NCBI GenBank assembly: GCA_036874045.1
Contig: CM072343.1
Location: 1,508,001-1,572,000, forward strand
From: Cymodocea nodosa
Lineage: Eukaryota; Streptophyta; Magnoliopsida; Alismatales; Cymodoceaceae
Direction: 5' to 3'
DNA length: 64,000 bases
Shown: one piece after another, positions 34,590-61,962 of the stretch
Layout of the letters: each line of letters begins with the position of its first letter
Numbering within the stretch: position 1 is the first letter of the stretch
Notes under the pieces: generated by a model
The model's database searches: none
What the model was told of the DNA's origin: nothing
What the model saw: only the letters and a program-made list of their open reading frames with translations
Position numbers and translations under genes: made by a program

Positions 34590-35329
34590 TGTTAAGAACG
34601 AATGACTTCACCAGAGGGGGGGTGAATGGAGAACAAAGTGAATTTAAGCCTATTTTTCACTTTACTAACTAATTTGATTAATCAGTTTGCATAAGTAATA
34701 ATCAGATAAAAATATCATGCACAACAGAAATAAAGGTAAGAAACACAAGAGAATTTTAGGTGGTTCACCAACTCGGCTAGTCCACCCCCAAGGGTCACTT
34801 GGGCTTCACTAAGTGTCTCAACACTTACACACTTACTTTCAGGTCGAAGCAAGAACCAAACATATAGAAGTTTTCAGGTATAAACTCTAGAAAACCAACA
34901 CTCAAAAGTTTTCATGTATAAACTCCAAAAAACCAACCTCTTGAGTTTTCAGGTCGAAACTCAAACCAACAACTAAATGTAGCTTTCAGGTTGAAGCCAC
35001 GAACCAAATGATCCTTCTTGGATCAGAGTTTCAGCACATGGAGAGCTTTAAGAATCTTCTTGTAAATTCAGCTTTCAATCGATTCTTTGTTGAACTGAAT
35101 TTGAGCTTTCTTCTATATCAGTAATTGATCTGCAATGTATACTGTATCTCTATATGTAATTGTATCTGTAATCTCACTTGTAAGCTTTGCTGTATATCCG
35201 TTGTCTGTATTTTGTATATATACTTGATATGTACAACGATCATATTTTCCTCCAACGGATGTATTCTACTGTACTTGATTAGGCTCAAGTCCCAATACGG
35301 TAAGTTACCGTTCAGAAAATCATTTCAAG

Positions 35330-36200: not shown

Positions 36201-36269
36201 TGTAGCTCTATAGCAGTATCTTCTGGAACTTTCTCTATCTATTCGTTTACTTTCTGATCTTTTGTTGAG

Positions 36270-38359: not shown

Positions 38360-40164
38360 CTTCCCCCATACCTAAATTTTGCTAGTCCCTTAGCAAACTA
38401 AGATCTAATTAATTGATCTTTCAAAAAGTGCTCGAATTAATTCTTCCCCTTTTATTTTTTTTCTTCTATTCAGCATAAACATATATTCTGTATGTTTCAG
38501 TAATCAACCTGCAAAGATATTTAGAATATATGTAAATTACATACAAAGTATATCATCTTCATATAGGTGTTAATTATATTATCGTTTGTTCTTCTTTTCA
38601 TCATCTGTAATCCTGAATTTTCCAATAAGTTTTCTAGAAGAAATTTCAACAACATACGAATCAAAGTACAATCCAATTCAATCTGATTAAGACAAGTAGA
38701 ATAAAGAATTGTATTTCCATTAAACAACTTCAAAAGTCAATTCCAGATTCATATTTCAGCAATTCTAGATAACAGAAAATATACTCGATTCATAAGATAT
38801 CTGTATTTCACAAAACACTTGTATCTTTTCAGAACAGTATATATTTTTTTCTTTTCTTTTTTTTGTGTACTTTAAAAGTTAATTTGACAAGCTTGAATCA
38901 TACAAGAGCTTTCTAATGTACCCATGTAACGAGCTTTCAGTCAACAATCCCAGATCTGATCAGGATCTTAGGTTGCCAGATTTTTAGAGTCCTTTTTCAG
39001 GTCAACAATCCTTACATACCTATCTGCTCAAGTACAAAAGGCTCATGATCAAACAAGTCAATAAACTCTCAAAGTTTTTTCTTTTTTCTTTTTTTAAAAA
39101 TAAATGCACACACAAAACAAAACATTAATCACATACTATATATGCACGTATTTCATTAATACAGATGTAGTAAAACACCAATCTCATATAATCCTGCTTC
39201 TATCATTTACTAAAAATATGAATCCATAACAATAAACTCATACTTTATCTGTAGTTTAATAAGATCTACACATAAATCATTCTACAAGTTCAATCAGTCA
39301 AAGTAAATGTATCTTTCATCATATGTGTTTCATTTAATCTAGAATTCACATCTCAGCTCCTTCAGGACTTCAGATAATTTTATGATTAAGCATTAAATAT
39401 TCTGATTTCATTTTAAAATCGTGAAACTGTTAAACTCATGAAATTCAGAAAAATCATAAGATACTATATCTAGATTTACATAAATAATAAATTCTATAGC
39501 ATCTTCTATAACCTTCTAAATATAACATTCAAGTAGTTTATAAAAATTTTAAAGTCTCAATTATCGAATAGTTACATTAAGTTCATAAAAATTTTCAATT
39601 TCCTCAAAACTTTGTAATACCATTTTAATTCCTTTAATTAACAAACTTACATGGCTGTTACTTTAATTACCTCCCCCCCATACCTACATTTTGCATTGTC
39701 CTTAATGTAAAAGATTTGACAATAAGTACAGTAATTGTAGCAGGCATGAATAAAGTTTTGTTTGATTTAAAATTCAGGATAAGTAATTGGTTACATACCT
39801 TGTTCCATTTGTATCTCTTTCTACATATTTCGATTTTTGATTCTGAAAAACTTTTCATTCCCAGATAAACACAGAATATAAAACAAAATAACATTTAACA
39901 GATATTAATAAATCAATGTCTTGTGTGGAACCCAAGCTCCTATGCCTTTGGTGGCTCACAAGCAAGCTAGTTGGTTTCCTAGAACAGATACCAACAAACT
40001 AGATTGATATTTTGTTTTTTTTTTTAAATGAACATGAAAACTTCAAAATTCTTTTTTTTTTTCTTTCTAAAAATAAATGCAGAATACACAACATTAAACA
40101 CACAAAATCACAGCTTAAGAACATGATTGAAAAGTAGAAACAAATGGAATAAATGTATCAGTTC
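38360..40164 (-). other. Element B: 3' noncoding region with two polypurine tracts
   Basis: Read on the minus strand, TATGGGGGAAG (38360-38370) abuts the 3' LTR and is the expected polypurine tract. A second one, TATGGGGGGAGG (39670-39681), lies 1.3 kb upstream in a similar sentence (a GGACA/GGGACT block, then CAAAAT.TAAGTATGGGGG). The rest is noncoding and collinear with 57946-59824 of element A. Confidence 0.8.
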
Positions 40165-41280
40165 AAGCAAACTTTTTAGGCATAGTTCTTCTTGCTATTA
40201 ATTCTGTTTTAAAGCAGTTCTTGTTCATTTTTAATTTGTAAACATGCAATATATTATAAATTCCAAATACGAGTGTATTACCATTAATGATATGTAATGC
40301 AGAAAGAGATCCTTTTTGGTTCCAAGGTAATGTAGCGGTTTCTATTTCTACATCTATTTCAATATACTTCTCTTCCCACTTCTATTCATTCATGTCTTCC
40401 ATAATCCATATTTGAAATTTCATCAGTTCATCCCACCATCTTATCAGACATAAAGTAGGATCATCTTCTTCATTATACCACATTCCTATTTGAATTTCAT
40501 TAAATTCTGCAGATGGTGGTTTAGCTATTTCACTCGGTATAGGTAAAATTTCTATATAATCATCATAACTGTCTATGCTCACTATGTATAAATCAGATCC
40601 ATATGCTAATGATATCTCCGTGACTAAATAGATATATCCATCAAGTATGACATGTGTTTGGTTAATTACTGATTTCTGTCCTAGATATATCATAATGTTT
40701 TCATTCCAAGATCTGTTCAGAAAATTATACACACTTAAGCGTAAATCTTCACCCCAATTTCCTGTAGGTCTCCAATAATATAATTTTCAGGAATTGCAGA
40801 ATTTTTATTAGAAAATATTAAAGCTGACCTACAATTTACAGTTGGTGCTTCAAATCTATTAGGTCTTCCTATATTCCATTCTTCTTTTGTTATAGGATTT
40901 CTTATCAAAATATCCGGTAATAATAAACTTGCATACCTTGGTCTCGTCTTGTATATGATTAATCCTTCATCTATCCCCATAATATGACTCATTCCTTCTA
41001 ATGCATTGGGTGGAATTCCAGTAGTTTCTTCCATAGCCAGATATTCATGGGTATTTGAACTATGATTAAATGACCTTCATATGAATCCATCTCTAATCTT
41101 AGTCATTTTTGCTGCTTGTAGTCCCTGAAAATATTTTTCTTCAATACAGTCTTTAATTTCCTTTGATACACAACACAGCCTGCACAGATCTTTAGCTGAC
41201 AAGTTACTTAGTATTTCCCTTAGTGCATCCAACAGTAATTGCATTAATTCCATTTGTCGATTCAGTCTGAAGCTTTCCAT
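40165..41280 (-). mobile_element. Element B: captured F-box gene (fossil)
   Basis: On the minus strand the start shows LLLDALREILSNLSAKDLCR, then CCVSKEIKD: a normal plant F-box of about 40 residues near the N-terminus. Downstream segments resemble the F-box-associated interaction domain (LDGYIYLVTEI, then GMWYNEEDDP and RWWDELMKFQIWIMED). The position, between integrase and the 3' polypurine tracts, is the same as in element A. The family is common in plant genomes and acts in SCF ubiquitin ligases. This copy is interrupted more than once. Function in the element is unknown. Confidence 0.82.
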
Positions 41281-42625
41281 TCTATAAATATTTGTTGTCG
41301 GATGAAGGTTGAATCAGCTGCTTCTCCTTCCAGTTCCTCCAATGCTTTCTCCTTTCTTTTAAAAGTGCTGGTAACTCATAAATAACATTCTGTTTCATAT
41401 ATATACTGTGCATCCATAAAGTGAATAAATCTCGTTGCAAGAACGTGTCTTGCAACGTGCATCGTGGTTCCTGTTTTTATGGGTACGTGTACCACTACTA
41501 ATTTCAAATTTTGGTAACCGCTAAACCGACAAAGTTTCGTTTGTAGTTAAAAGAATAACCGTTTTGCTTAATCCACGAACTATCCTCGTTGAGTTACAGA
41601 TTACTCAACAGAACACAGTCAGTTACTGTTGCTAACTCCACGAACTAACTTCGTTGAGTTACAGATAACTCAACGGAGTGACCTTATATTATATTACTGA
41701 CCTCGTGGAGTTACGGTTAACTCAACGGACTTACTTCTTTGAGTTAACACTTGGCAACTTCTAAGTTTCACTCTTGTAAGTTTTTTATTCTATTTTTTTT
41801 TCTTTGTCATTCTGCTAACTGTAATAAAGTTAAATCTATGTCATTAATGCCTCATTTTGATTAAAATATATTTAAATCTGAACATTATATAAAGATTTAA
41901 CTTGCAGGTCATTTTATGTTATGAAGAATTTACATTTTACCTTATAACATGTAGAAATTTTTAAGCAGTTATCCTGTCATTCAGCAAATTGTAAATCTGT
42001 TACATATTCATAAAGTTCCACAAATTACATAATATTCAATAAATTCCATTCATTTCACATCCAAATACGTATGAAAATTGCATCTGAAAAATTATATTCA
42101 TTAATATGAATCAATTACATTACAAGTACATCATACAATTTCATACAATTTAATATCTATGCCAAAATTCATCTACTTCCTTCTGGAGCTTTTCTAATTT
42201 TAGATCTTTACTACAGTACTCCGTTGAGTTATAGTTAACTCAACGGAATAAGCTCGTTGACTAACTCAAGACTCAATGGAGTAAGCTCGTTGAGTTAAGC
42301 GTAACTCAACAGACTCCCCGTACAAGCAAATATAATAATAAAAATATTACAGAGAATAGTTTTTCTATTTTTTTACAGGGTTAACCGATACTATGCTTCG
42401 GTCAGACCTAAATATTTTTTATTTTTTTATTTTTCTTTCGGTTGAATCGATACTATGTTTCGGTAAAACCAATATTTTTTTCTGAAAATTAATATACAAT
42501 TTTTTTTAATGTTCCGGTCATACCGATGGATCTAGTCTGTTGAACCGCAACTATTTTTATGTTTTATATATATTTTTAATGTTTTTTTTTTATATATATA
42601 TATAAACATAAAAACTGATTTCTTA
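41281..42625 (-). other. Element B: spacer between integrase and F-box ORF
   Basis: Noncoding. It has the third hairpin class (TCGGTT/AACCGA type; 42370-42540) and the CGTTGAGTTA class (41580-41740, 42215-42310). On the minus strand a TATA-like TATATATATGAAAC lies near 41390-41400, some 100 bp before the F-box start. The spacer is shorter than the matching part of A because the extra ORF is not there. Confidence 0.7.
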
Positions 42626-43715
42626 CTAAGTAAAGCTCGAGTAGTCCTCTACTCTGACTTCTTCTATAATTCCAAAGGAGCTTTTTGGTGTTATCAGAAT
42701 AGGTTTAAGTCTTTGTCCATTTACTTTAAATATATTCTGATTTTTAGGATTTTCAATTTCAATAGCTCTATAAGGATAAACATTTCGAACTATGTAAGGT
42801 CCTGCCCATCTAGATCTTAATTTTCCTAGATGGTTATGGAGTCTAGCCATATAAAGATATACTTCTTGTCCTATTTCAAAGCTTTTAGGAATAATTTTTC
42901 TATCATGTCAGAATTTAATTTTCTCTTTTTCTCTTACAGTATTCGAATAAGCTTCATTTCTAAATTCTTCTAATTCAATTAGTTGCATTTTCCTATTTTT
43001 AGCAGCTTGATTTAAATTAGTGTTCAAAGTTTTTAATGCCTAATAAGCTTTATGTTCTATTTCAACAGGTAAATGACAACTTTTTCCATATACTAGCCTA
43101 AAAGGTGACATACCTAAGCTCGTTTTATAAGCAGTTCTATAAGCCCAAAGTGCATCTATTAGCCCAATCTGTTCTAGTAGGATTTACTACTTTTTCCAAG
43201 ATTAATTTAATTTGTTTGTTTGCACTTTCTACTTGTCCACTTGTTTGCGGATGATATGATGTTGCAATTTTGTGGTTTACTCCATATTTCTTCATTAAGG
43301 CTTCAAAACTTCTATTACAGAAATGAGTTCCTCTATCATTGATAATAGCTTTAGGTATTCCAAATCTGGCAAATATATTTGTTCTTATAAATTGTATTAC
43401 CACTTTGTTATCATTAGTTTTTGTAGGAATAGCTTCTATCCATTTAGATACATAATCCACCCTCAACAATATGTAATTAAATTGATTAGACATAGGAAAT
43501 GGACCCATAAAATCTATTCCCCACACATCAAAGGTTTCAACCTCAACAATAGGATTAAGAGGCATCATATTCTTCTTTGATATTCTTCCTATTTGTTGAC
43601 ATCTTAAACAACTTAAGTAATATTTATGAGCATCTTTGAATAGTGTTGGCCAATAAAACCCACATTGCAGAATTTTTGCAGTAGTTTTCCCTAAACCAAA
43701 ATGTCCTCCACAAGC
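42626..43715 (-). mobile_element. Element B: integrase (fossil)
   Basis: The minus strand has the catalytic-core landmarks DVWGIDFMGPFP, then INDRGTHFC and SGQVESANKQIK, that is the D, D and E of a Ty3-gypsy integrase. A zinc-binding part lies before it (about 43580-43710) and a basic C-terminal segment (LGKLRSRWAGPYIV) after it. Broken in places. Confidence 0.9.
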
Positions 43716-45470
43716 TTAGTCATGACAGAAAGACAATATGCTCGAATATTCAGTTTCTAGAACACACCTCCTTAAAACCATATCAGGACATTTCTTAAAT
43801 AAGTAAGGGTCTTCCCAATAGTAATATTTTACTCTTGAGAAAACTAATTTCTTATCCTGCCTATTCCAATCCTTAGGTGTTAAACCAGTAACTAAGTAAT
43901 TAACTATGTTTGCATACCAAGGCATTGTGTTGATGGTTATTAATTGTTCATCAGGAAAATTATCCTTAATTTCAATATTTGATTTTTCTATTTGTAATCT
44001 TGATAAATGATCTGCTACTACATTCTCACAACCTTTTTTATCTTTAATTTCTAGATCAAATTCTTGCAATAATAATATCCATCGGATCAATCTAGGTTTA
44101 GTTTCTTTTTTCTTTATTAGATGTTTTAGAGCTGAATGATCCGCGTATACTATTACTTTAGCTCCAATCAAATATGATCTAAACTTTTCTAAAGCAAACA
44201 CAACAGCTAATAATTCTTTTTCAGTAGTTGTGTAATTAACTTGAGCATCATTTAAGGTTTTGCTTGCATAATGAATCACTCTAGGAGATTTTTCTATCTT
44301 CTGTCCTAACACTGCTCCTACAACAAAATCAGAAGCATCGCACATTAATTCAAATGGATGATTCCAATTAGGTGCTTGAATTATAGGAGTTGAAATTAAG
44401 CTAGTCTTAAGTTTGAAAAATGCTTCCTTGCAATTTTTATCAAAGTTAAATGGAACATCTTTTAATAGATTAGTTAAAGGTCTAGCTATCTTGCTAAAGT
44501 CTTTAACAAATCTTCTATAAAAACCAGCATGTCCTAGAAATGATCTAATATCTTTTACTGATTTAGGTTTTGGTAGATTAGAAATTACTTCTATTTTAGC
44601 TTTATCTACTTCCAACCCTTTTTTAGAAACAACATGCCCTAAGACTATTCCTTGTTTAACCATGAAGTAACATTTTTCCCAATTTAAAACCAGATTTTTT
44701 TTCCACACAACGTTTTAATATTTGGTCTAAATTGCTTAAACACACTTCATATGAGTTACCATATACAGTAAAATCATCCATAAATATTTCTAAAAATTCA
44801 TCAGTCATTCTAGTAAATATGCCCTGCACACACCTTTGAAAGGTAACTGGCGCATTTCATAATCCGAATGGCATTCTTTTAAAAGCATAAGTTCCATTAG
44901 GACAGGTGAAAGTTGTTTTCTTTTGATCCTCTAATGCTACTGGAATTTGATTATACCCTGAATACCCGTCTAGGAAACAAAAATATTCTTGCCCTGCTAA
45001 TCTTTCCAACATTTGATCTATAAAAGGTAAGGGAAAATGATCTTTCCTAGTCACAACATTCAGCTTTCTATAGTCTATACATACTCTCCAGCCTGATTGA
45101 ATTCTAGTAGGTATCAAGTCTTGACATTCATTCCTAATAACTGTTAATCCTGATTTCTTAGGAACTACATGGATTTGACTAACCCACGAGCTATCAGAAA
45201 TCTGATAAATTATATCATTATTTAACCATTTAACTATTTCCTTCCTGACTACTTCTTTAAGGTTTGGATTTAATCTCCTCTCAAGAATTCTAATAGGTTT
45301 AGCATTCTCTTCTAAATATATGTGGTGACAGCATAAAGTTGAACTTAACCCTTTTATATTAGTCATAGTCCATCCTATTGCTTCTTTATAACTTTTTACT
45401 ACATCTTTTAATTTAGCTATTTGATCCTCTTTTAAATCTGAAGCAATAATGATTGGACAGGTCCGTTTAT
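43716..45470 (-). mobile_element. Element B: reverse transcriptase and RNase H (fossil)
   Basis: The upstream part (about 44857-45366) has the RT fingers and palm (WRVCIDYRKLNVVTRKDHFPLP and a FLDGYSGYNQI motif). The downstream part (43716-44708) has the thumb ([16 protein letters not shown]), RNase H with [13 protein letters not shown] and [10 protein letters not shown], and the start of the integrase zinc region. Typical Ty3-gypsy. It carries breaks. Confidence 0.92.
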
Positions 45471-45582
45471 CTTCTAGAAATATATATGTTAATTCAGGAG
45501 GTAAATGTTTTAATTCTAAATGCTGCTCATCAGAAGCTAGAGCTCCTAATTGAACATCATCATTTTTTAAATTAATTTCTTC

Positions 45583-47259
45583 CTAATCTCCTTCTATATT
45601 TATGCTTTCACTTTCTTCTAAAGTTTCAGAATTGATTTGCCTATTTAATTCTTCTTGAATCACATCATCTAACATATCTCCTTCATCCTTTAGAAAGTCT
45701 ATGGTATGTAAGGACATTTCTAACTCCTCAAACATTTCTGGTTTGAAAATATTTAATTGAGTATCCTCATTACTATATGCTAACTTCATTACTCCAGTTT
45801 TACAATTTATAACAGCCCCTAATGTTGCTAAAAATGGCCTTCCCAAAATTAAAGATGTATCACTATTTTTATGCTTAATTTGTTGGGAATCCAAAATTAC
45901 AGTATCAATAGGATATATAAAATTCTTGATTTTAATTAAGACATCCTCTATTTTTCCTCTAGGGTATCTTATACTTCTATCAGCTAATTGAATAACCGTA
46001 TTAGTAGGAGTTAAGCCTTCTAATCCTAAGGATGCAAATATATCACTTGGCATAACATTTATACCTGCACCTAAGTCTATTAAGGTTCTTTCTAGAATGG
46101 TATTTCTTATGGTGCATGATATAACAGGGATTCCAGGTTCAGATAACTTTTTAGGAATTTGTGGCAGAAATAGGGAACTACTTTGCTCAGCTAAAAAGAC
46201 CTTTCTAAGAACTTTTCGCTCTCTTTTCTTAGTACACCAATCCTTCAGAAATTTAGCACAAGGTGGCATATTCTGCAATAGATCTAACAAAGGAATGTTA
46301 ACTTGTACTTTTTCAAAAATTTCTTTGATTTTTTCTTGTTTTTCAGGAATTGTTTGTTGTAATCTTTCAAGATAGAGTGCTAAAGATTTTGATTTCAAAG
46401 ACTCTTTTTCTTTCAGTTGATTTGTTTGATCATTTTTAGCTTCAATTGCAGATTTAGATTGTTCTTTAGTGATTTCTAGATTTTCAGCTATTACATTTTC
46501 ATTATCATTTTGATTTTTACTCTTGTCCACCTTCATATCATTTTCATTTTGAGTTCTTGGTGGTATATCAGTTCCAGATCTTAATGTTACATCTTCTAGA
46601 TTTTCGTTACTTTCATGATGTTTTTGTATATCATTTTCGTGATTATGATCTTCAATTGTTTTTAGTTTTAATGTGCATTCTTTAAATTCTCTTACATTAG
46701 TGTTTTCTGTTTGTTGTATATTTTGCAAGTTATGCAGGTTTATAACATTATAATTTTCATTGTCCTGTTGCAAAACTTGTATTTTCATTGCATTTTTGTC
46801 TAATGCTTTTAATTTTGTTTCCATATCATCTAATTTCATTGCATTCAATTTTTGATCAATTTTCTTTATGGCTTTTTTAGTTTCGTAAATTATATCCTGT
46901 TTAGGTTCTGAATATGCCTCCTTATAGTTTAATCGGTTGACTTCTTGTTGTTGACACACAAAGTATTCCAGTTTGTCCAGATTTTGCTCTATACTATGCT
47001 CCAATCTGTCATAGCTATCCCAAACTTCAGTGTCTCTCATCATATTACACATTCTATACTGACCATCAGTTGAGTAAACTATAGGATTCTTATACTCGGC
47101 TCTATTATATTGAGGATAATTCATTTGTTGTTCATGGGATCTAACAATCTGTAAATGTCTCAATTTCAAACATTCAGAAATGTCGTGTCCTTCAAAATTG
47201 TAGAATTCACGTATGCTAATTAAAGGTTTCAGAAATCTTTAAGCATAAGCATATGCCAT
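45583..47259 (-). mobile_element. Element B: knuckle-linker-protease ORF (fossil)
   Basis: Most of this is a long open stretch of more than 500 codons on the minus strand. Near its beginning is the knuckle-like EFYNFEGHDISEC and a long lysine/asparagine-rich linker with coiled-coil character. Next come VTLRSGTDIPP (a landmark of the gag-protease junction in Athila-type elements) and the protease with DLGAGINVMPSD near 46070. The ATG-proximal end is only about 95 bp after the PBS; no capsid domain precedes the knuckle. Confidence 0.88.
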
Positions 47260-47353
47260 ATTCTCAATTACAAAAGAAAACACACAACTCTGACTATTAA
47301 AATGAAACAGCTCTAACTGTTGCTTATATCTATTCAATTCAATTCAATTCAAT

Positions 47354-47371
47354 TCCCCGGTAATGGCGCCA
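47354..47371 (-). other. Primer-binding site of element B (tRNA-Asp)
   Basis: The minus strand reads TGGCGCCATTACCGGGGA, matching the complement of the plant tRNA-Asp 3' end (TGGCGCCGTTGCCGGGGA) at 16 of 18 positions. It lies 7 bp inside the 5' LTR end. Confidence 0.88.
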
Positions 47372-47378
47372 TAAAACT

Positions 47379-49437
47379 TGTTTGAGTTTTCCTAGCACTA
47401 CAATAGAAAAACTTGGATTTGTTACTTCTATTTTTACTTAGTTAATTTATCTTTATGCCTATTCTTTCTTTTAGAAGTAAACAAACAACCTTTAATACAA
47501 TTTAGATATTAATTCCAATTTGTACTTTAACTGTAAGTGCATAGTGTCTATTGTATCAGTGTGCAAGTACAGGTTGATCTCACAGGGAATTGCTGACGAA
47601 TTTAGGAAATGTTTGTTTGTGAACAATTCAAATTTATATTCAATAAGCACTCCGTTGAGTTACAGTTAACTCAACAGACTAAGTTCGTTGAGTTATGGAT
47701 AGCTCAACGGACTATCCTCGTGGACTTAAGTTAACTCCACGAGCCTGTCTATTCTTTATAATACTATTATTTACAAAGGAATTCGGCCAACCATTGGGCG
47801 ATTCCACAGATTGTAAATAACATCAATTAAGCTTTTTAATGCTAGTTAACATTGGATTTATCATTAAGCAATACTAACATTCAAATGATTCAAACAGTAA
47901 CCATTAAAATCTTTAAGTTTTTTTTTGTACGAACCAATTTCAGTAAACTGTAAAATTAAAACTAACATAAAATAATCATAAAATTGATACAGATAACATT
48001 AATCACGATACAACACAAACAATACAACACTCAAATACAACATACAAACAAAGATAAATTGTTTTTGGTATTTTTGTTTTGATGTGAACATGGAAATGGG
48101 CGAAAGGTGAAATGTAAAGTAATCTCACTTGATAGTAAATACTTCCGACACTACTTGCAACGCGATTACACCACTGAAAATTAAACCACTTACAATTCTG
48201 TCTCCTCTCCCTATAGAATCGCGAGTCCAGAATTGCAAGATGATCTCCTCTTCAGCATATAGGCATCAACCCGAAGCCAAGGCTAAAAGCTTTACAATCT
48301 CCTGAAATATGAGTCGGCGCTTGGTGAAAATGGCTTCCCTTCCCGCGACGTGATCACTCCTCATAGTGGTTGTCAGACATTGTGTTTGGCTCGGAATCGA
48401 CCCGGCAACAGGTAAATATCCTCACAGACCTCCGATGATTGGTGATTATGGTGGTGATAACGATTGTTGGTGTGATACTTCGGAGAATCGCTAATACTAT
48501 CTACAGAAAGCTCAGTGCTCCTCCTCTGTATACACTGGCCGTCCATCGATCACACACACTTCTTTTTTTTTTCTTCTTTTCTCTTATATTTCTTCAGTAG
48601 TAACTGCTTCTGCTTGAATGGTCGGTTGGATTTCCTTCCTTCAGATCAACGTCGATGATTTCTTTCTCCTTGCGCGATTGAATTCTTGCATGATACGTGC
48701 AAACGTGATTTTTCCTTCCAACTGTCTGTTCCTGCAACTGCTACAGTGGCATATTAGAAAATATATAGTTTGTGGAGTTACAGATAACTCAACGGACTTT
48801 CTTCGTTGATTTAACTATAAAACATGTGTAAGCCGCTAACATAACGTGTTACCTTAGTGTATATTCATGTAACTCAACGTGTACAGTTATGCTAACTTAA
48901 CGAGTTATAACTTAAGTAAATCTACCAGATCTCGACACGTGTCAGCAGCAGTTTAAACATAAAATAACATTTCGGAGAGTTACAGGTCTAACTATTCGAT
49001 GCTCAGATGCATTTTCGGATAGTTATAGCTAACTCACCAAAAGTTCATTTAAGACATTCATTCTGGTTTCGACACGTGTACATCTGGAAATAATAAAATA
49101 TTCTCTCAAAACATAACTGTTCGGCAATTTAAACATAACTATCCGATACATATTCGGTCTGTTAAACATAACTGTCCGAATTTGTTCGGTATATTAAACA
49201 TAACTGTCCGAAATATCAGAAAATTCGGATAATTAAGAATTTCACAGCCTACAACTTACCGACAGTTCATAAATGTACTAAATTAACATTAATTCCCCAA
49301 AATTAAGCAGATTCTTCAATTAAAGCATATAACAGTGAAATTATAACATAATTGCTTAATTCTCATATGATAAGCTAAATATTATGTAATTAATCATCAT
49401 TTAACCGTTAATAATATGCACTTTTTCATTCTAAACA
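47379..49437 (-). repeat. 5' LTR of element B
   Basis: 2059 bp, the partner of 36270-38359. Same order of motifs; one short tandem unit fewer near 49140-49170. The TATA-like stretch, read on the minus strand, is near 48590. Confidence 0.9.
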
Positions 49438-49521
49438 CTGAGCTATCATATCTGTGAAATGCAATTTGGTTTCCTCACATAGGTTTTTGCATTATCAAAA
49501 TACTAGGGTCTTAACACCATT

Positions 49522-51352
49522 CAACTTTGATAAAAATTGCAAGGAAGCATTTTTCAAGCTTAAAACTAGCTTAATTTCAACTCCTATAATACAAGCACCT
49601 AATTAGAGCCATCCATTTGAATTAATGTGCGATGCATCTGATTTTGCTATAGGAGTAATGTTGGGACAGAAGATAGAGAAATCTTCTAGAGTGATTCATT
49701 ATGCAAGCAAAACTTTAAATGATGCTCAAGTTAATTATACAACTACTGAAAAAGAATTGTTAGCTGTTGTGTTTGCCCTAGAAAAGTTTAGCTCATATCT
49801 AATTGGAGCTAAAGTGATAGTATACACGGATCATTTAGCTTTAAAACACCTAATAGCAAAGAAAGAGACTAAACCTAGATTGATCTGATGGATATTATTA
49901 TTACAAGAATTTGATCTAGAAATTAAAGATAAAAAAGGTTGTGAGAATGTAGTAGCAGATCATTTATCAAGGTTATAAATAGAAATATCAAATATTGAAA
50001 TTAAGGATAATTTTCCTAATGAATAATTAATGACCATCAACATAATGCATTGGTATGCAGATATAGTTAATTACTTAGTTACTGGTTTAATACCTAAGGA
50101 TTAGAATAGTTAGGATAAGAAATTATTCTTTTCAAGAGTAACATATTACTATTAGGAAGACCCATACTTATTTAAGAAATGTCTTGATCTGGTTTTAAGG
50201 AGGTGTGTTCTAGAAACTGAATATCAGAGCATATTATCTTTTTGCCATGACCAAGCATGTGGAGGGCATTTTGGTTTAGGGAAAACTACTGCCAAAATTC
50301 TGCAATGTGGATTTTATTGGCTAACACTATTCAAAGATACTCATAAATATTGCTTAAGTTGTTTAAGATGTTAACAAATAGGAAGAATATCAAAGAGGAA
50401 TATGATACCTCTTAATCCTATTGTTGAGGTTGAAATCTTTGATGTGTGGGGAATAGATTTTATGGGTCCATTTCCTATGTCTAATCAATTTAATTATATA
50501 TTGTTGGGGGTGAATTATGTATCTAAATGGATAGAAGTTATTCTTACAAAAACTAATGATAACAAAGTGGTAATACATTTTATAAGAATTAATATAATTG
50601 CCAAATTTGGAATACCTAAAGCTATTATTAGTGATAGAGGAACTCATTTCTGTAATAGAAGTTTTGAAGCCTTAATGAAGAAATATGGAGTAAATCACAA
50701 AATTACAACATCATATCATTTGCAAACAAGTGGACAAGTAGAAAGTGCAAATAAACAAATTAAGTTGATCTTAGAAAAAGTGGTAAATCCTACTAGAAAA
50801 GATTGGGCTAATAGATTAATAGATGCACTTTGGGCTTATAGTACTGCTTATAAGACAAACTTAGGTATGTCACCTTTTAGGCTAGTATATGAAAAAAGTT
50901 GTCATTTACTAGTTGAAATTGAAAATAAAGCTTATTGGGCATTAAAAACTCTAAACACTAATTTAAATTAAGTTGTTGAAAATAGGAAAATGCAATTGAT
51001 TGAATTAGAAGAATTTAGGAATGAAACTTATTCAAAAACTGTAAGAGAAAAAGAGAAAATGAAGTTTTGGCATGACAAGAAAATTATTCCAAAAACCTTT
51101 GAAATAGGACAAGAAGTATTTATTTATATGACTAGACTCCATAACCATCTAGAAAAATTAAGATCTAGATGGGCAAGACTTTATATAATTCGAAATATTT
51201 ATCCCTACGAAGCTATTGAAATTGAAAATGCTAAAAATTAGAATATATTTAAAGTAAATGGACAAAGACTTAGACTTATTTTGAAAATACCAAAAAGTTC
51301 ATTTGGAATTATAGAAGAAGTAAGAGTAGATGACTACTTGAGCTTTACTTAG
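49522..51352 (+). mobile_element. Element A: RNase H and integrase region (fossil)
   Basis: After the nested unit, the A sequence resumes with RNase H ([15 protein letters not shown] near 49625, then [10 protein letters not shown]), followed by the integrase zinc region (about 50220-50400). The catalytic core has DVWGIDFMGPFP near 50440, SDRGTHFC near 50630 and SGQVESANKQIK near 50735, and a C-terminal segment (LEKLRSRWARLYII) ends near 51350. It carries several breaks. Confidence 0.9.
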
Positions 51353-52081
51353 TAAAAAAAAAATTAATTATCTAAGTGTGTGTTATATATATATAAAAAA
51401 AAACATAGTCATGGTTCAACTGAAAGAAATTATCGATTTTATTGAAACATATATTAAAAGAAAAAAATCGTTGCGGTTCAACCAACAGGATCTATCGGTC
51501 TGACCGAAACATTAAAAACATAAAAAATCTATATATTATATTAAGTAAAAATGTCGATTTTGTCGAAGTATAGTATCAGTTCTACCGAAAAAAAAGAAAC
51601 AATACAGTATTTAATTTCGGTTCAACCGAGGAATATAATGGTTTGACCAAAATGCTAAAATGTTGAAAAAATTAAGAGTCGGTTACACTGGAAATTCTTC
51701 GGTCTAGACCGAAGTAATTATTATTATTATAAGTATTTTTATTAGTTATAACTTTACGGAAAGTCCGTTGAGTTATGCTTAACTCAACGAACTTACTTCG
51801 TTGAGTCTAGGATAAGTTAACGAACTTACCCCGTTGAGTTAACTATAACTCAATGGAGTACTGTAGTTAAGTCCACGGACTTAGTCCGTGGAGTTAACTG
51901 TAACTCCACAGTGAGGTAGATGAGAGAACGAGAGTTTGCGTGGGAAAATGACCCGATTACCCGCATAAACTTAGGGCTTATTTATACTAAAACTTAGGAT
52001 TTTGGGGCATTATACGCAGACTCATTTGAAACTTAGAATAGTAGAGATCAGAGTGATTTCGTTTCGTTCCATTACTCCACG
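51353..52081 (+). promoter_or_regulatory. Element A: hairpin-rich spacer and possible internal promoter for the extra ORF
   Basis: From 51420 to 51714 lies a set of TCGGTT/AACCGA-type inverted pairs, including a perfect 18-bp palindrome CTTCGGTCTAGACCGAAG (51697-51714). From 51763 to 51910 follow CGTTGAGTTA/TAACTCAACG pairs. A TATA-like TTATTTATACT is at about 51987, some 95 bp before the ORF start at 52082. Promoter activity is inferred. Confidence 0.5.
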
Positions 52082-54330
52082 ATGACAAAGATGACATCAG
52101 AATTCTGGGAGGACATAGTTGACATGACAGAATTTCTCAAAGAATCAGAAGAATGGCACACAAGGCAGAAGATTAGAAATACAATATGGGAAAAAGAGCT
52201 ACAAAAGGTAAAACCTGACCTTTTCTACTGGAGGAAAGTTTTAGTAGATTTAGACATAAAAATACCTCAGATTATGGAAACAAGAATCAAAGTAGCTACA
52301 GAAGTTGCATTAAATAGAGAAAAAAATCAGACCAAATAATGAAGTTGCCCTAGAATTGATCCAACGTAAGTCCTGACTATGGTTCAAAAGACGCATAGGT
52401 GGACGTGCTCGGTGGGAAATTTGGGAACAACAGAGGAAAGGAAATGAAGAACATACAACTGAAGAACAACAAAAACCAACTGCTAAAAGACCTGTCTCTA
52501 AGGAACAGCAACCAGGACCATCCATTCCACTGCCAAGGCTATTAGAAAGAGCAGCATTTTTGGGGCCATCTACGCTAGAGGAATGGAAAGAATTTGCAGA
52601 GTTGGTTAAAATTGCCAAAAGCCAAGGAAATTCTAAGGATATGGTTGTGGTAAAAATGCATTTACTATATGATGCACTCTGCAAGAAAATGGTCAAAGAA
52701 AAGTTGAAGGCCCAATATAAAATTAAAGTAGAGTAACATCAAGAAGTAGATAGATCAATGACTGTAAAAGAAACTGAAGCTGGTCCTTCAAGTCCAGCAA
52801 TTATAGAAAAAGTAAAACAAGAAGAGCCAGTACCTGTGGCTCGAGGGCCTGTAGAGCCTATTTTTGTAGATTTAATCTTAGAAGAAGAAGAGGAAGATCA
52901 GACACAGCTAATTAGAAGAAGGAAATGAAAAGAGATAGTGCCTGAACATCAAGAAGAGATTAAACCTAAGCCAACAATATCAGTAGGGCTTGTAGAGCCA
53001 ATTTTTGTAGACCTGCTATCCGAATATGAGGAGTAGGAGCAGTAGCAGCAAGAGCAAAGAGAAGAAGAAAAATAGGTTGAAATTAATCTGCAGCTTGTAC
53101 AAACAGAAGATACTGAAATTAGGGAAGAAGTTGATTTGCCCGTGACTCCATCCCAATCTGCCACAGAATCAGAAAGAATATGACAATGCAGATTGGTAGT
53201 TAGGAGGAAGAAGAAAGAGAAGAAACTGAACAAGAAGCTGAACAAGAGTGTATGGAACAAAAAGGAAATATTTCAACAAATTCCACTAAAGAGCAAAGGA
53301 CTCTTCAGCAAATTTTTGAAAGAATTTAAGATAGAGTAGAGAGTTCTATCGGCTCTCCATCAAAGATAGAAGTAGAAACAAAAAGGCTGGAATCTCCAGA
53401 TCATTTTTAACAAAGTCAAATTCAACACATGGAAGAGGAAATTCAAGAACAAACCCTTCTCGAGCAACAAATGCAAATTCCTAACCCGTTTGAAGCTACC
53501 ATTCTAAATGAAGTATACTTTTGGAGTTAGGAAGCTTATAATAAATATCAAGAGATAAAGGGGTATGATATTATTTATAGTAGGCCAGTAAACTGAGACG
53601 GTATGTAAGAAATTAAGGACTTATTTGAGTTTTAGGGTCTACTGCAATTTATTTCTCAACAGAGAGGGCATGTAGTATATGAAAATCTAATGCCCTACTT
53701 TTATGCCAATTTGAGAGAAGGAGAAAGTGGATTAATTTCCAACGTGGAGCAAGCTGATGTACAGATAACACTAGAGCTTCTCCACAATATTTTCGGACTG
53801 AGAAAGGAAAGAATTGAAATTCTAGAAGAAACAACTATAGTGGAATGGGCTGAACAGGAAATTAAATAGTGTATAGCCATCGACCCTAGTGTGCCATTAC
53901 TGAACATATTGAAGTACTTAAATGGAAAGGCACACATGGTTGTAACTATACTGGTAAAAATTGTTTATCAAAGACAAGGCCACGACATTGAACTTAGTCA
54001 ATTTGTCAAGTGGGCCACATATGCAGTTGTGAACAAGATTCAAGTTAATTGGTTTGCAGTTTTTATCTCCAAACTGAGAGCAATAAAGAAAAAATTATTT
54101 TATGAAGATTTGATTCCACTACTGATGGTAGACAATATTGATTTCACGAAATGAACATTCAAAAAGATAAGATCTAGAACCATTTTAGTGAAAGAATATA
54201 GAAGTTATGTTGCTACTGAAATATCTAGACCTTCTAGAGACATTATAGGGGCTGTTGAACGGATAAATCAATTAGAGCAATAATTAGAAAAACTCTAGAA
54301 TGAAGTAGATGAACTTAGGAATAAAGATTA
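52082..54330 (+). mobile_element. Element A: extra ORF between integrase and gag (fossil)
   Basis: The region starts MTKMTSEFWEDIVDMTEFLK and shows several open stretches in one direction. The middle is rich in E, K and Q. The later part (about 53500-54160) has a YFYANLREGESGLISNV-like segment and a helical end that recall the 'putative plant transposon protein' domain seen in Athila/Tat-lineage elements; I cannot verify this without a profile search. Near 54240-54330 is a coiled-coil-like tail. It carries many breaks. Element B lacks this ORF. Confidence 0.6.
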
Positions 54331-55327
54331 AATTGTATTGTTCGTCTACTTATACTTATATTTGTACTAAAAATATCTGATTGAATGTAAATGTAACTAT
54401 TCATATAAATGAATGTTTGAAATTTAGATGTTTTTACATTCGTGTTTGAGAATGAATGATATAATTGATGAACTATATTGAATATTATATAACTGTTTTA
54501 AGATATGCAAGATTGTTTAAAAGATTTACAAATTTTATGAATGACATGGTTAAATGCATGATAATTGGTTAATGCTTGAATATATCTACATGTTGAAAAG
54601 TAAAATGTAAATTCTACATAACAGGAAATGAACTGTAAGTTAAATATGCATATAATGTTTAGATTTAAATGAGTTTTATTTAGAACACTGCATTAATGAC
54701 ATGTATTTAACTTTATTTAAGTTGACAAAATGCAGGAGAGAAAATATATATAGAAGTTAATACGAGGAGTAAGTTTTAGAAAAATTTGCTAAGTGTTAAC
54801 TCAACGAAGTAAGTCCGTTGAGTTAACCTTAACTCCACGAGGTCAATAATAAAATATAAGGTTACTTCGTTGAGTTAACTGTAACTCAATGAAGTTAGTC
54901 CATGGAGTTAGCAAATAAGTAATTGAAGCTAGTCCATTGAGTTAACTATAACTCAACGAGGTTAGTTCATGGATTAAGCTGAACGGTTATTCTTTTAGCC
55001 ACGAATGAAACTTTGTAGGTTTAGCGATTACTAAAATTTGAAATTAGAAGTGAAACACGTATCTATAAAAATAGAAACCATACTACACATTACAAGACAC
55101 GTTCTTGCAATGAGATTCATTTGCCTTATGAACGTGTATTATAAATATAGAACAGAATGTTATTTACTAGTTACCAGCACTTAAGGAAGGAAAAGTAAAT
55201 TCATTGGGGAACTAGAAGGAGAAGTAGTTGATTCAACTTCATCTATCAACAACTATTTATTGAGAATAAAGCTTTAGACTAGTATGTAATTAATCTTCTG
55301 CTATTTTACTTTATGTAAGAGTTTATG
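54331..55327 (+). promoter_or_regulatory. Element A: spacer with hairpins, TATA-like box and splice-donor-like site before gag
   Basis: Noncoding. CGTTGAGTTA/TAACTCAACG-type pairs at 54795-54965 are followed by a TATA-like TATTATAAATATAG near 55138-55150, some 175 bp further on. A GTATGT that fits a plant 5' splice site is at 55282-55287. The gag ATG (55328) lies just after it. The layout suggests a separate transcription unit. Confidence 0.5.
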
Positions 55328-56675
55328 AGCACAGGGATTCGTTCTCCTAGCACTAAACGATTAGTAAGAATACCTACATAGGATTATTTAATATAGAGGC
55401 GTATCGAAATATTTTATGAATTGGACTTTAATGAAATCCTTAGGGGTGTAGCTAACCTTTCTTTAAAAGGGAACAAAGATATGGCTACTCTAGTAGAAAA
55501 ACCATTAGGGAAAATTCTGTATCCTGAATTAGCTGATGAACCTTCATGTATTTGATTGCCAAACTTTAAGGGAGATATGTTTGAACTGAAATCTAATTAT
55601 ATTAGTCAATTGCTACACTTTCATGGATTAGAGAGAGTAGATGTCTATTATTTCCTTAGAGAATTTAACGAAGTTTGTCAAATGATGAAAATGCCGAACA
55701 TGAGTATTGATGCTATTAAACTTAGATATATCTCTTTTGCTTTAAAAGGCACAGCTAAGAGATGGTTATATACTCTGTCGCCTAATTCAATTTCTGCATG
55801 GACTGAATTTTACTCTGTTTTTCTAGAAAAATATTATCCAACACATCAAACGATTAAAAAGAAAAAGGAACTATTAATGTATAGCCAAAAATAGGGAGAA
55901 TCATTTTGGAAATATTTTGAAAGAATAAAAGATTTACTGACTCAATATCCACATCATGTAATGAGTAAAGCACAATTAATAGGTATAATTTATGAAGGCA
56001 TAGATGCTTCAACGAAATCTTTATTAGAATCTACTTGTTAGAATGTATTTTTAAAACTGTGTAGTGAAGAAGCATGAGAATATTTAGAGAACTTTGTAAA
56101 AAGAACTACATAGTGGGAAAACTTTATTGGAGCTATTACAGATAAAAAAATATTGTTAAGGGGAATGCATGAAATAGATTCAAGCACTATGCTTGAAGTT
56201 AAATTAATTGAATTAACAAAGAAAATAGAAGAGTTATCATTAAATCAAAAGCTAGTAGAAAAAAATGCAAATGTTAATGATTTAGATATTATTTATGCTA
56301 GAAACTAGAAAGATAACTTTGGAAATTCTTATAACCCTAATTGGAGAAATCACCCAAATCTATCTTGGAGAAACAACAATTTCCAGGGAGGAGAAAATAT
56401 AAATGACAAAAATATAAGTTATGAAGCATTAATTGAACAAGGATCTAGAATATAGAAGTTAGAAAAGATAATTCAACAATTAAATAATCGTCTAGATCTT
56501 GTATTTGGAAATACTGCCATTTAAAATCAAAATATGAATAGAAATATACCCCTTAGATAGAAGGAATCAACAGAAGTTAGACCTACTGGAGAATTGCCAA
56601 TGCAAGCAGTACCTAACCCTATCAACAAGACTATTAATGAAATTGATACCTCCTATGGGAGGGATGCTGAATGAA
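55328..56675 (+). mobile_element. Element A: gag capsid-domain ORF, located downstream of pol (fossil)
   Basis: The region begins MSTGIRSPSTKRLVRIPT. From 55556 it matches the retrotransposon gag domain of Athila-type elements: FELKSNYISQLLHFHGLERV, then IKLRYISFALKGTAKRWLY and FLEKYYP. Near 56320-56380 is the NPNWRNHPNLSWRNN phrase that follows the capsid domain in Athila gag. In ordinary elements this block precedes protease; here it follows integrase and the extra ORF. A few breaks are present. Family assignment is firm; the location is what is unusual. Confidence 0.88.
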
Positions 56676-56754
56676 GCAGTATAACTAAAGCAATTATGTA
56701 TAATATAGTAAGTATAAAAAAAGAAGAAGGGTTTAATTATAGTTTGTAATATCG

Positions 56755-56871
56755 TAGAGTTATTACTTAACTCAACGAACTTAGTCGGTTGAGTTATGAC
56801 CTAACTCCAAGAGGGTAAGTAAGTAGCTATGTTGATTTTGTGTCTGTTAAACTTTTGTTTATGTTTTACAG
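56755..56871 (+). promoter_or_regulatory. Element A: hairpin pair and splice-acceptor-like site before the F-box ORF
   Basis: A CGTTGAGTT-like pair is at about 56755-56815. A pyrimidine-rich stretch ends TGTTTTACAG at 56871, which fits a plant 3' splice site; the F-box ATG follows at 56883. Confidence 0.5.
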
Positions 56872-56882
56872 AATCACAATAG

Positions 56883-57945
56883 ATGGAATTGATGAAATTA
56901 CCACTAGATGCACTAAGGGAAGTACTAAGTAACCTGTCAGGTAAAGATCTGTGTAGATTGTGTTGTGTATCAAAGGAAATTAAAGACTGTGATAGAGAAA
57001 AATATTTTCATGGACTACAAGTTGCAAAAATGACTAAGATTAGAGATAAATTTTTATGGAAGTCATTTAATCATAGTTCAATCAGCTATGAATATCTGAA
57101 TATGGAAGAAAATGCTGGAATTCCACCCAATACATTAGAAGGAATAAATCATATTATGGGGATAGACGAAGGATTAATTATTTACAAAACCAAACCAAGG
57201 TATGCAATTCTGTTACCTGATATTTTGATTAGAAATCTTATCACTAGAGAAGAATGGAATATAGGAAGGCCTAATAGATATGAAGTACCAACTGAAAATT
57301 GTGGGTTAGTTTTAACATTTTCTGATAAAAATTCGACCATTCCTGAAAAATTGTATTACTGTAGGCCAACTGGAAATTGGGATGAAGATTTATGTTTAAG
57401 TGTGTATAATTTTTTGAATAGATCTTGGACTGAAAATACTATGATATATCTAGGATAGAAAACATTAATTAACAACATACATGTCATACTTGATGGATAT
57501 ATATATCTAGTCACAAATATATCAGTTGCATTTAGATATGATTTATACATAGTAAACATAAATAGTTATGATGATGACTTTATAGAAATATTACCTATAC
57601 TGAGTGATATAGCTAAACCACCGTCTGTAGAATATGATAAAATTCAATTAAGAATGTGGTATAATGAATATGATGAACTTACTTTATGTCGATCAGATGG
57701 TGGGATGAATTGAGGAAATTTCAAATATGGATTATGAAAGACCTAAATGAATGGAAGTGAGAAGAGGAATATATTGAAATACATGTAGAAATAGAAACAA
57801 CTACATTATCTTGGAACAAAAGAGGATTCCTTTCTGCATTTCATTTCATTAATGGTAATACACTTATATTTAGTATTGATAACATACTACAAGTTTACAA
57901 GTTAAAAAAGGAAAGCGGACTGCATTAAAACAGAATTAATAGCAA
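56883..57945 (+). mobile_element. Element A: captured F-box gene (fossil)
   Basis: Starts MELMKLPLDALREVLSNLSG, a normal F-box, followed by CRLCCVSKEIKD. The next 150 residues (NHIMGIDEGLIIYK, then LLPDILIRN and EEWNIGRPNR) and the later segments are collinear with the F-box ORF of element B and resemble F-box-associated domain proteins. The first 190 codons are open; later parts carry breaks. It lies 12 bp after an acceptor-like site. Plant F-box proteins of this type are SCF substrate receptors; the target here is unknown. Confidence 0.82.
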
Positions 57946-59824
57946 GAATGATTATGCCTGAAAAGTTTGCTTGGACTAACACGTTTATTTCGTTTGTTAC
58001 TACTTTTCAATTATGTTCTTAAACTATGATTTTGTGCTTTTAATGTTGTGTGTATTCTGTGTTTATTTAAAAAAAAAAGAGAAAGAAAAATTTGAGTTTT
58101 AGTTTTATTTTATAAGAAAAGAAAAACAAAATATCAATCTAGTTTGTTGGTATTTGTTCTGGGAAACCAACTGACTTGCTTGTAAGCCACCAAAGGCATA
58201 GGAGCCTGGGTTCCACACAAGACACTGAATTAATAATTTATGTTTTGTTATTTTGTTATATATTTTACTTTTATTTGTGAATGAAAAGTTTTTTAGAATA
58301 AAAAACAGAAGATATTGAAGGAGATACAAAAGAACAATGTATGTAATTGATTACTTAACTTGAATTTACATTTAAACCCAGTTTGTGGAGTTATTCATTA
58401 ACTCAATGAATTAAGTTCATTGAGTTAGGTACTAAATCAACAAAACAATATTCATGCTTGCTAACATTTACTATAAAATCTTTTACATTGAGGACACTAC
58501 AAAATGTAAGTATGGGGGGGAGGTTATTAGATTAACAGCCAAGTAATTTTGTTAATTAGAGGAATTAGAATGGTGCTGTAAAGTTCTATGGAAATTGAAA
58601 TTTTTTTTTTTTATGAATTTGCTATAACTATCCGATAATTGAGACTGTCAAATTTTTAAGAACTATAACTATTTGAATGTTATATTTATAATCTTATATA
58701 AGATGCTACAGAATTTTACTATTCATAGAAATCTAGATATAGTATCGTATGTTTTTGCTAAATTTTATGAATTTAACAGTTTCATGATTTTAAAAAGAAA
58801 TCAAAATGCTTAACTGAAACTTAGTAAATTATCTGAAATCTTGAAAGAGCTTAAATGTTGATTTTTGGATTAAATGGAATACATATGATCAATGATACAT
58901 TTAATTTGATTGATTAAACTTGTAAAATGATTTATGTGTAGATCTTATTAAACTACAGAAAAAGTATGAGCTTATTGATATAGATTTATATTTTCAGTGA
59001 ATAATAGGAGCTATATGAGATTTGTATTTTATTGTATTTGTATTAATGAAATACGTATATATATACTGTGTTGAAAAGAAAAAAAGAGGAAAAAAAAGAG
59101 AAAAAATTTGAAAGTTTATTGACTTGTTTGATCACGAGACTTTTGTACTTGAGCAGATAGGTATGTAAGGATTGTTGACTTGAAAAAAGACTCTTTAAAT
59201 TTGGCAACCTAAGATCTTGATCAGATCTAGGATTGTTGATTGAAAGCTTGATACATGGGTACACTAGAAAGCTCTTGTATGATTCAAGCTTTTCAAATTA
59301 ACTTTTAAAGTACAAATATACATATACTATTTTGAAAAGATAAAAGTATTTTGTGAAATATAGAAATCTTTTGAATCGAGTATATTTTCTGTTATCTAAG
59401 ATTATTGAAGTATGAATCTAGAATAGACTTTTGAAGTTGTTTATCTGAGATACAATTCTTTATTCTATTTGTTTTAATCATATTAAATTGGATTGTGTTT
59501 TGATTCATATGTAGTTGAAATTTATTCTAGAAATCATATTAGAAAATTCAGGATTACAGATGTTGGAAAAGAAGAGAAAAATGATAATATAATTACCACC
59601 TATGTGATGTTAATATATTTTGTATGTAATTTACATATGTTTTAAATATATTTGTTGGTTGAAGAGGAGAAAACAATGTTAAAACAGATTACTGAAAAAT
59701 ACAGAATATCTATATAGTAATCTAATTTATGTATTTTGAAGAATTAATTCTAGCAACTTTAGAAAGATCAACTAGTTAAATTTTAGTTTACTAAGGGACT
59801 AGCAAAATTTAAGTATGGGGGAAG
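57946..59824 (+). other. Element A: 3' noncoding region with two polypurine tracts
   Basis: TATGGGGGAAG (59814-59824) abuts the 3' LTR and is the expected polypurine tract. A second, TATGGGGGGGAGG, is at 58511-58523, in the same relative place as in element B. A CGTTGAGTTA-type pair is near 58380-58440. No ORF is recognisable. Confidence 0.8.
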
Positions 59825-61957
59825 TGTTTAGAATGAAAAAGTGCATAATATTAATGGTTAAATGATGGTTAATTACAGAATATTTAGCTTATCATATGAG
59901 GATTATGTCATTATGTTATAATTGCACTTTTGTATGCTTTAATGAAAGAATCTGTATAATTTCAGGAAATTAATGTTAATTAAGTACATTTCTAAACTGT
60001 TGGTAAGTTGAAGGTTTTTAATTCTTAAGTATCTGAATTTTTTGTTATTTCGGAGAGTTATATTGCATGTATTAGACAGTTATGTTTTAAATATTTAAAG
60101 AATATTTTATTATTTCTTGGAGTACATGTGTTGTAACCATAATGCATGACTTAAGTGAATTTTCGGTAAGTTATCTAGTAACTATCCGAAATGCATCTAG
60201 GCATCAGACAGTTAGGTTCGTAGGTATCTGAAATATTTGAACTCGTTAAGTTAGAATTATGCATGTGTTGAATTTAAATGCTTTATTATGTCACATGAGT
60301 TGCAAATGTATAACTCGTTAAATTAGCATAACTATACATTTTGAGTTAATTGAATATACACTAAGGTAACACGTTATGTTAGTAAGCTTATAAGTTATTT
60401 CTTTATTGCACGTGTTTTATAGTAAATGAACGAAGCAGGTCCGTTGAGTTATTTGTAACTCCACAGACCATTTATTTTCTAATATGCCACCGTAGTAGTT
60501 GCAGAAACAGGAAATTTGAAGGAAAACCACGATTGCACGTATCACGTAGGAATTCACTCGTGGAATGAAGAAGAAATCACCATCGTTGATATGAATGAAG
60601 GAAATCTAATCGATCATTTAAGCAGAAGCAGTTATTACTGAAAGAAATATAAAAGAAGAAAAAAAAGATGAAGAAAGTGTGTGTGCAGAGGTGGAGAACC
60701 ATGCTAATTGCAGGAAGCGTCGGAAGTTCCCTGAAGCTCCACACCACCACCAAAATCACTAATCATCGAAGGTCTGTGAGGATACTTTCCTGATGTCGAG
60801 TCGATTTCGAGCCAAATACGGTGACTGACAACCATTGTGAGGAGTGATCACATCACAGGAAGGGAAGCCATTTTCACCAAGCATCGACTCATATCTCAGG
60901 AGATCGTAAAGCTTCTAGCCTTGGTTTCGGGTTGATGCTAGTATGTTGAAGAGGAGGTCATCTTACAATTCTTGATTCACGATTCTATAGGGAGAGGAGG
61001 CAATATTGTAAGTGATTAAGTTTTTAGTGGTGAAATCGCGTTGCATGTAGTGACAGAAGTTTTTACTATCGATAGAGATTTTTACATTTCATCTTTCATT
61101 CTTCTTTAAGATTATATCAAAACAAAAATACCAAAAACAACAAATTATCTGTATTTACATTTAGTATTAAAGTGTTGTATTGTTTGTTTTGTATCATGAT
61201 TAATGTTATCATTGTCAGTATTGTGAATGTTTTTTGTTTATTTGATTCAGAAAATAGAAAATAGTTTTATTGTTACTGAAATGGATTCGTTCCAAATACT
61301 CAAAGATTTTAATGGTTACTATTTGAAATATCTAAATGTTAGTATTGCTTAATGATAAATCTAATATTAACTAACATTAAAGAGATTAATTGATGTTATT
61401 TATAATCTATGGAACCACCCAATGGTTGGTCGAATTCCTCTGTAATTAACAATATTCTATTGGAAAAATAGACTTGTGGAGTTAACCTAAGTCCACGAGG
61501 TTAGTCCGTTAAGTTAGCCATAACTCCACGAACTAAGTTTGTTGTGTTAACCTTAACTTAATAGAGTACTTAACTGAACACATATAAACTCTAATATAAA
61601 AATTAGAACAGTACACAATTCTTACTCAATCTCTATAGGATCGACCTGTACTTGCACACAAATACAATATACACTATGCATTTGCAGTTAAAATACAAAT
61701 TGGAATTAATGTTTAATTTGTGTGAAAGGTTGTTTGTTTACTTCTAAAAGAAATTATTGATATAAGCAAGTTTAAGATTTAACTTTTCACAACCAAACAA
61801 GTTTTCTATCACTATTGCTAGGGAACTAATCAAGTTCTCTAGTGCCGCCTAACAAATAGAAGTTAACAAATCAATACAAGTTTTCTAGCGCCGTTGCTAG
61901 GGAACTAACCAAGTTCTCTAGTGCCACCTAACAAACAAAAGTTAACAAATCAATACA
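59825..61957 (+). repeat. 3' LTR of element A
   Basis: 2133 bp; same ends and motif order as the 5' LTR. TATA-like GAAATATAAAAGAAG near 60645, hairpin motifs near 60430-60475 and 61480-61560, two PBS-like units in the last 170 bp. Confidence 0.92.
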
Positions 61958-61962
61958 AGTGG

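Follow-up and report, generated by a model that had tools for sequence, protein, structure and literature searches.

The genome of Cymodocea nodosa holds retrotransposons in which gag lies behind pol, an order that is real, general and fixed in many copies. From their gene order and splice-site sequences we judge it likely that they represent an Athila-like clade of Ty3/gypsy elements, pol first and gag last, and that in the most abundant family seen gag is housed in an intron of an F-box gene, whose splicing gave rise to gag-less copies. The arrangement occurs in element A of a stretch of 64,000 nucleotides (C15:1508001-1572000, henceforth the window) and was followed through the assembly searched (374.6 Mb, 28 contigs). 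A preliminary description of the window had placed the capsid block of A behind integrase and an extra ORF, and the Pfam profiles bear this out, with Retrotrans_gag at 55556-55891 (E 6.9e-8) and rve, the integrase core, at 50375-50968 (E 1.2e-12).

Self-comparison, LTR ends and TSDs showed the window to be a nest in which element E holds A, A holds insertion F and F holds element B. Element A is a single element (29533-61957) flanked by the TSD AGTGG at 29528-29532 and 61958-61962, and all its parts lie on the forward strand: the 5′ LTR (TGTTTAG...AATACA, 29533-31665, delimited by LTR comparison and TSD), the primer binding site (PBS; TAGCGCCGTTATCGGGGA, 31673-31690), the start of the pol ORF, with a short N-terminus, knuckle and linker and without capsid (31775-32400), linker and protease (32401-33453), reverse transcriptase as far as insertion F (33457-34589) and, beyond the insertion, RNase H and integrase (49517-51349). 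Behind these follow a broken ORF, ORFx (52037-54151), a GT-AG intron of an F-box gene (55282-56871) with the whole gag ORF inside it (55325-56674; own ATG at 55325 and TGA at 56674, capsid present, knuckle absent), exon 2 of the F-box gene (56872-57925), whose frame is broken further on, and the 3′ LTR (59824-61957). The gag frame spans 449 codons from ATG to TGA, and in A, an old copy, 11 stops interrupt it; the F-box domain (PF00646) was recognized at 56883-57455 (E 8e-9). ORFx has a weak likeness to Transposase_32 (E 0.046 in A and 0.0021 in the related copy L025, both under the cut-off). Insertion F (34590-49516, strand unassigned, TSD CCATT) consists of the parts 34590-36269 and 49438-49516 and contains element B on the reverse strand (36270-49437). 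Both A and B have paired LTRs, 91% and 94% identical, with a 5-bp TSD (AGTGG in A; TTGAG/CTGAG, one difference, in B). The enzyme order PR-RT-RH-INT typical of Ty3/gypsy is present with its Pfam domains, protease being under the Pfam cut-off (the B homologue of the A protease matched Asp_protease_2 at E 0.0011). Elsewhere in the window, 1231-5043 and 10864-14631 form a direct duplication (97% identical, about 9.6 kb apart), and exon-like ORFs on the forward strand at 16.7-21.6 kb probably belong to a host gene, one of them weakly resembling glycosyl transferases group 1 (E 3.6e-5, under the cut-off).

The 1348-base gag block recurs at 92-100% identity in at least 40 places in the genome, A included. 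We took the ten best copies after A with about 10 kb on each side; located on several contigs, all ten show the order gag-tail-3′LTR, nine keep the spacer before gag and nine carry the F-box behind it. Integrase or its remnant lies upstream of gag in four, the remaining six being cut or interrupted before integrase. One copy (C16:11462000-11476672) is unbroken and reads LTR-knuckle-PR-RT-RH-INT-ORFx-gag-F-box-tail-LTR; its front match begins 7 bases past the LTR match, so that a capsid gene has no room there. Wherever the stretch from LTR to protease is present (this copy, two more fronts in L010, A and B), gag is absent from it. The same order extends to other families. The eight best Retrotrans_gag loci genome-wide (L001-L008) all fall outside A's family, and gag lies behind integrase in every case, with 52-57% identity to A gag over the core and an integrase that is 61-68% identical to that of B in six loci and, over a fragment, 43% identical to that of A in L004. 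Three families besides A can be distinguished with gag behind integrase: L034 (= L002) and L035 (= L001), which when read at greater length give knuckle-PR-RT-RH-INT-gag, and L040, in which integrase runs on into gag. An LTR pair and TSD were looked for in the L034 copy and not recovered. Many copies with one order had been named as the support to be sought, and these ten copies and three families supply it.

We crossed the 150 top-ranking matches to gag with the same number for integrase, which gave 16 same-strand pairs within 2.5 kb, all of them integrase-first, and zero gag-first pairs within 12 kb. One pair at 11.6 kb is probably due to chance (about 0.7 expected), and 2 pairs were on opposite strands. 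When 137 matches of L034 gag were crossed with the best 150 integrase matches, all 33 pairs within 4 kb were integrase-first and no further pair appeared within 12 kb; the two sets of pairs overlap, being partly the same copies, and both are silent on the gag matches that had no partner among the matches listed (134/150 and 104/137). A preponderance of copies with gag ahead of protease, envisaged in the preliminary description as the contrary outcome, was not seen among these copies and matches, and no gag-first relative turned up in anything examined (genome matches listed and fetched copies). Two candidates for such an arrangement were rejected: a 1076-aa frame with gag at C5:6537022 is integrase running into gag, and L036, considered as a gag-first control, proved to be a gag-less relative, so that the genome yielded no gag-first control. 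An integrase tree of 16 rows and a gag tree of 14, both built from this genome's copies only, agree in their groups: support is 99-100 for each of the F-box, L034 and L035 groups, L040 is a single row, and relations between groups are weakly resolved.

Between the PBS (~31673) and the protease, A has nothing beyond the short start of an ORF, a knuckle that has decayed (ICEFYNLEGHDISDC, with Tyr for the second Cys) and a linker, and no capsid in the domain reading, much as had been described. The front knuckle of this family has stayed intact in L025 (CEFCNLEGHDISDC), and A and B carry it in decayed form; for E, a knuckle scan agreed that the pol ORF opens at the knuckle. The PBS TGGCGCCGTTGCCGGGGA is exact in L034 and has one change each in L035 and L036; both TAGCGCCGTTATCGGGGA and TGGCGCCGTTGCCGGGGA are putatively of the tRNA-Asp type. 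The leader from PBS to pol is 1.0-1.2 kb long in L034 and L035, and since its longest open stretch is 62 codons it hides no capsid. The idea that gag had been split, the knuckle staying in front and the capsid going behind, had to be abandoned: the rear gag of L034 and L040, like that of L008, keeps its own CCHC knuckle, and the one in front is a second, with which the pol ORFs of L034, L035, L036 and E open. A rear knuckle was not found in family A (L029-L031 and the window scanned), in the L035-type loci L001, L003, L005, L006 and L035, or in L007.

The gag ORF of family A occupies an intron. In the unspliced L029/L030, about 95% identical to B, the sequence reads GACTG/GTATGTAATT...gag...TTTTACAG/AATCGACAAATGG, and in B and L033 it has the spliced form GACTG/AATCGACAAATGG. 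Element B retains pol and has neither ORFx nor gag, with the exact spliced junction at 41264-41266. Allowing up to 2 mismatches, unspliced donor sites number 3502 in the genome, acceptor sites 1803 and spliced junctions 228, B included, against 2, 1 and 1 for the respective controls; the surroundings were read in two of the 228, B and L033. Of 19 exact acceptors in part of C1, among the matches listed, 11 are preceded by an exact donor at a distance of 1547-1578 bases, and for the other 8 no such donor lies within 3 kb. At least 39 copies besides B match the B junction stretch at 96-98%, and identity among eleven gag copies from the subfamily of A is 92.4-94.5%, an age comparison that is rough because the two sets of identities come from different regions. 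We read the B-type elements as probable retrocopies of spliced RNA, which kept LTRs and pol and lost gag; a gag gene in a removable intron would account for the origin of such capsid-less offspring. In B, gag is missing through an exact intron loss. Three other gaps do not qualify as splicing: the loss of ORFx in B has no fitting GT-AG pair at its ends, and the unspliced L029 is also without ORFx; the pol-internal deletions of two copies have ends resembling short-homology deletions; and the gap upstream in copy C3, considered as a leader-gag splice, is occupied by another repeat.

A further gag-less lineage, a young one, is represented by L036/L037 (L036:1-5201, L037:1-3410; C6), whose LTR stretches agree at 99.5% across 841 bases and whose pol frame runs open from knuckle to integrase inclusive (1491 aa by the genome listing, 1413 aa inside L036). 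In the copy read, gag was looked for before and behind pol and none was found; frames of 1489-1491 aa occur in 13 of the 150 L036-front matches listed, of which one copy was read. In the integrase tree L036 is the sister of the F-box family (99/98), which makes gag loss the simpler reading, in a tree that is unrooted. B, L033 and L036/L037 all miss a Gag of their own, and such copies may borrow the capsid of others.

We compared Nei-Gojobori dN/dS between subfamily 1 (the copies A, C16, C18, C5 and C19) and subfamily 2. Ratios were 0.21-0.43 for gag (14 comparisons, with L029 and L031; C16 counted twice as two stretches) and 0.15-0.29 for integrase (16 comparisons, with L029, L031, L033 and B). 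The F-box gave 0.33-0.47 in the ten comparisons that leave A out; the five that include A, where the frame of this gene is broken, gave 0.40-0.64. By these ratios gag was evidently under purifying selection in the past between the subfamilies. Within subfamily 1 the gag ratio is 0.41-1.07, which fits decay after insertion. In L029/L030 the gag reading frame is uninterrupted over its full length of about 447 codons, and long open gag frames exist at other loci as well (L034-gag matches). L031:4604-6001 (C14) has a 677-aa frame in which a deletion fused gag to the F-box part. Stops inside gag copies are often TAG genome-wide, a bias that would fit methylated CAG decaying in the silenced repeats of plants and not a changed code.

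The expression of these elements may be pictured as follows. The first ORF past the PBS, opening at the zinc knuckle, encodes protease, reverse transcriptase, RNase H and integrase, and behind integrase gag forms an ORF apart, which has start and stop codons of its own. Given that the pol ATG of A lies about 100 bases past the PBS, full-length RNA should yield Pol, and gag would require another route, presumably a separate 3′ RNA for gag and F-box with the intron kept or spliced, produced from an internal promoter or by leader splicing. No strong leader splice donor common to both subfamilies was found, only weak sites. In family A, unspliced RNA retains gag, and splicing removes it and connects the F-box exons, as the spliced genomic copies show; spliced genomic RNA packaged in the capsids of other copies may have yielded the gag-less B copies. 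Palindromic units (TAACTCAA/TTGAGTTA and TAACTCCA/TGGAGTTA) cluster in the LTRs (5-7 each) and in the inter-ORF spacers of A (51768-51901, 54797-54949 and 56768-56802), the spacers holding 6 before ORFx, 8 before gag and 3 separating gag from F-box exon 2; the tail has a further 3, and the coding parts of A have just 1 among them. The totals for L034 and L035 are 2 and 1, with none in the spacers, and the units are possible internal control elements of family A only. More tentatively, one may imagine a multipartite system with an intron-encoded capsid cistron behind pol, under regulation of its own, which splicing would turn off to yield instead an F-box protein that possibly suppresses silencing; the clade would then consist of elements that supply capsid and gag-less pol elements, with particles in common. 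Some plant RNA viruses carry F-box proteins, and the silencing-suppressor idea draws on this analogy. A PDB sequence search with gag and F-box gave nothing up to E 0.1.

Gag could have reached its place in other ways. It is rather unlikely, though worth weighing, that the rear gag was not moved at all but captured from another element into an env-like position, the original front gag being lost afterwards. The rear is where other Athila-group elements hold extra ORFs (PMC1142308, in its accessible text), and the front and rear knuckles of L034 are what two formerly knuckle-bearing pieces would leave; integrase and gag nevertheless share families, so a capture would need to predate the family split, and no donor element was identified.

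The chance that the rear gag is dead cargo, with capsid supplied by ordinary gag-first elements outside our sample, seems small. Many gag copies do carry stops, and gag-less families with open pol frames are young; the gag ratios between subfamilies, however, come near those of integrase, and the open frames of L029/L030 and other loci likewise speak against dead cargo. That the block in A stems from a nested insertion or an assembly error, as the nested state of the region (E, A, F, B) might suggest, is on these data practically out of the question and was rejected: ten other copies on several contigs have the same order and neighbours, other families share it, and a separate element at 51.9-56.9 kb is contradicted by block ends that lie at splice sites in a coherent gene, with no LTRs or TSD of its own seen. 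We retain the pol-first, gag-last clade as the probable reading.

The gag-first order is usually tied to Gag being made in large excess over Pol. A clade that has pol first and numbers thousands of copies implies that other means can fix the Gag/Pol ratio, plausibly splicing in this case, and provides a natural system in which to test them; reverse transcription of spliced RNA would also be one exact route to gag-less elements. Ty3/gypsy elements are defined as GAG-PROT-RT-RH-INT in a classification that, in the portions available, lists 159 elements without a reliably identified GAG (PMC6317226); as gag-before-pol is part of the definition, gag-last elements would score there as gag-lacking. 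The Metaviridae profile likewise gives gag-pol, gag and pol, or gag, pol and env in its accessible text (PMC7879559). By its enzymes the clade is Ty3/gypsy, failing one defining feature, since GAG before PROT is absent from the elements examined. The suggestion that no described Ty3/gypsy lineage has this order agrees with the literature searched, mostly without subscription papers, in which we found no gag-last lineage. Viral contigs scanned with the L034 integrase contained no relative.

A close likeness is to the Athila group (Athila, Calypso, Diaspora; OTA), which shares long LTRs, ORFs behind pol and PR-RT-RH-INT, and whose PBS is of the tRNA-Asp type; so far as the accessible text goes, gag comes first there in one gag-pol ORF, whereas here it comes last, and env loss is proposed to proceed via packaged mis-spliced RNA, a route that here would remove gag (PMC1142308). 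The ATHILA ORF-1 domain PF03078 is reported in 16% of Athila elements (PMC6317226, available portions); a profile search of this genome gave no match, the control being silent as well. In an Athila-related pine family, sequence past integrase was not obtained according to the sections at hand (PMC2633040), which leaves it neutral as a precedent. Retand elements share a long region behind pol, and of 63 clusters 7 are without GAG and 2 more without GAG and AP; their extra ORFs, however, are antisense with another domain, and no gag behind pol is seen in the available text (PMC11963269). The Gmr1 group, Ty3/gypsy with a Ty1/copia-like INT order, also has an altered domain order, but the change lies within pol and the accessible text states no shift of gag (PMC2774666), the feature that differs here. 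A functional parallel is offered by BARE1 (Ty1/copia), which splices to give a Gag-only RNA, and BARE2, which has no Gag product and relies on BARE1 particles for packaging (PMC3735527, as far as its available text goes). The likeness would lie in the use of splicing and in gag-less copies; BARE1 and BARE2 are gag-first, and a small deletion took away the gag start codon of BARE2, whereas in the elements described here gag would have been removed as an intron.
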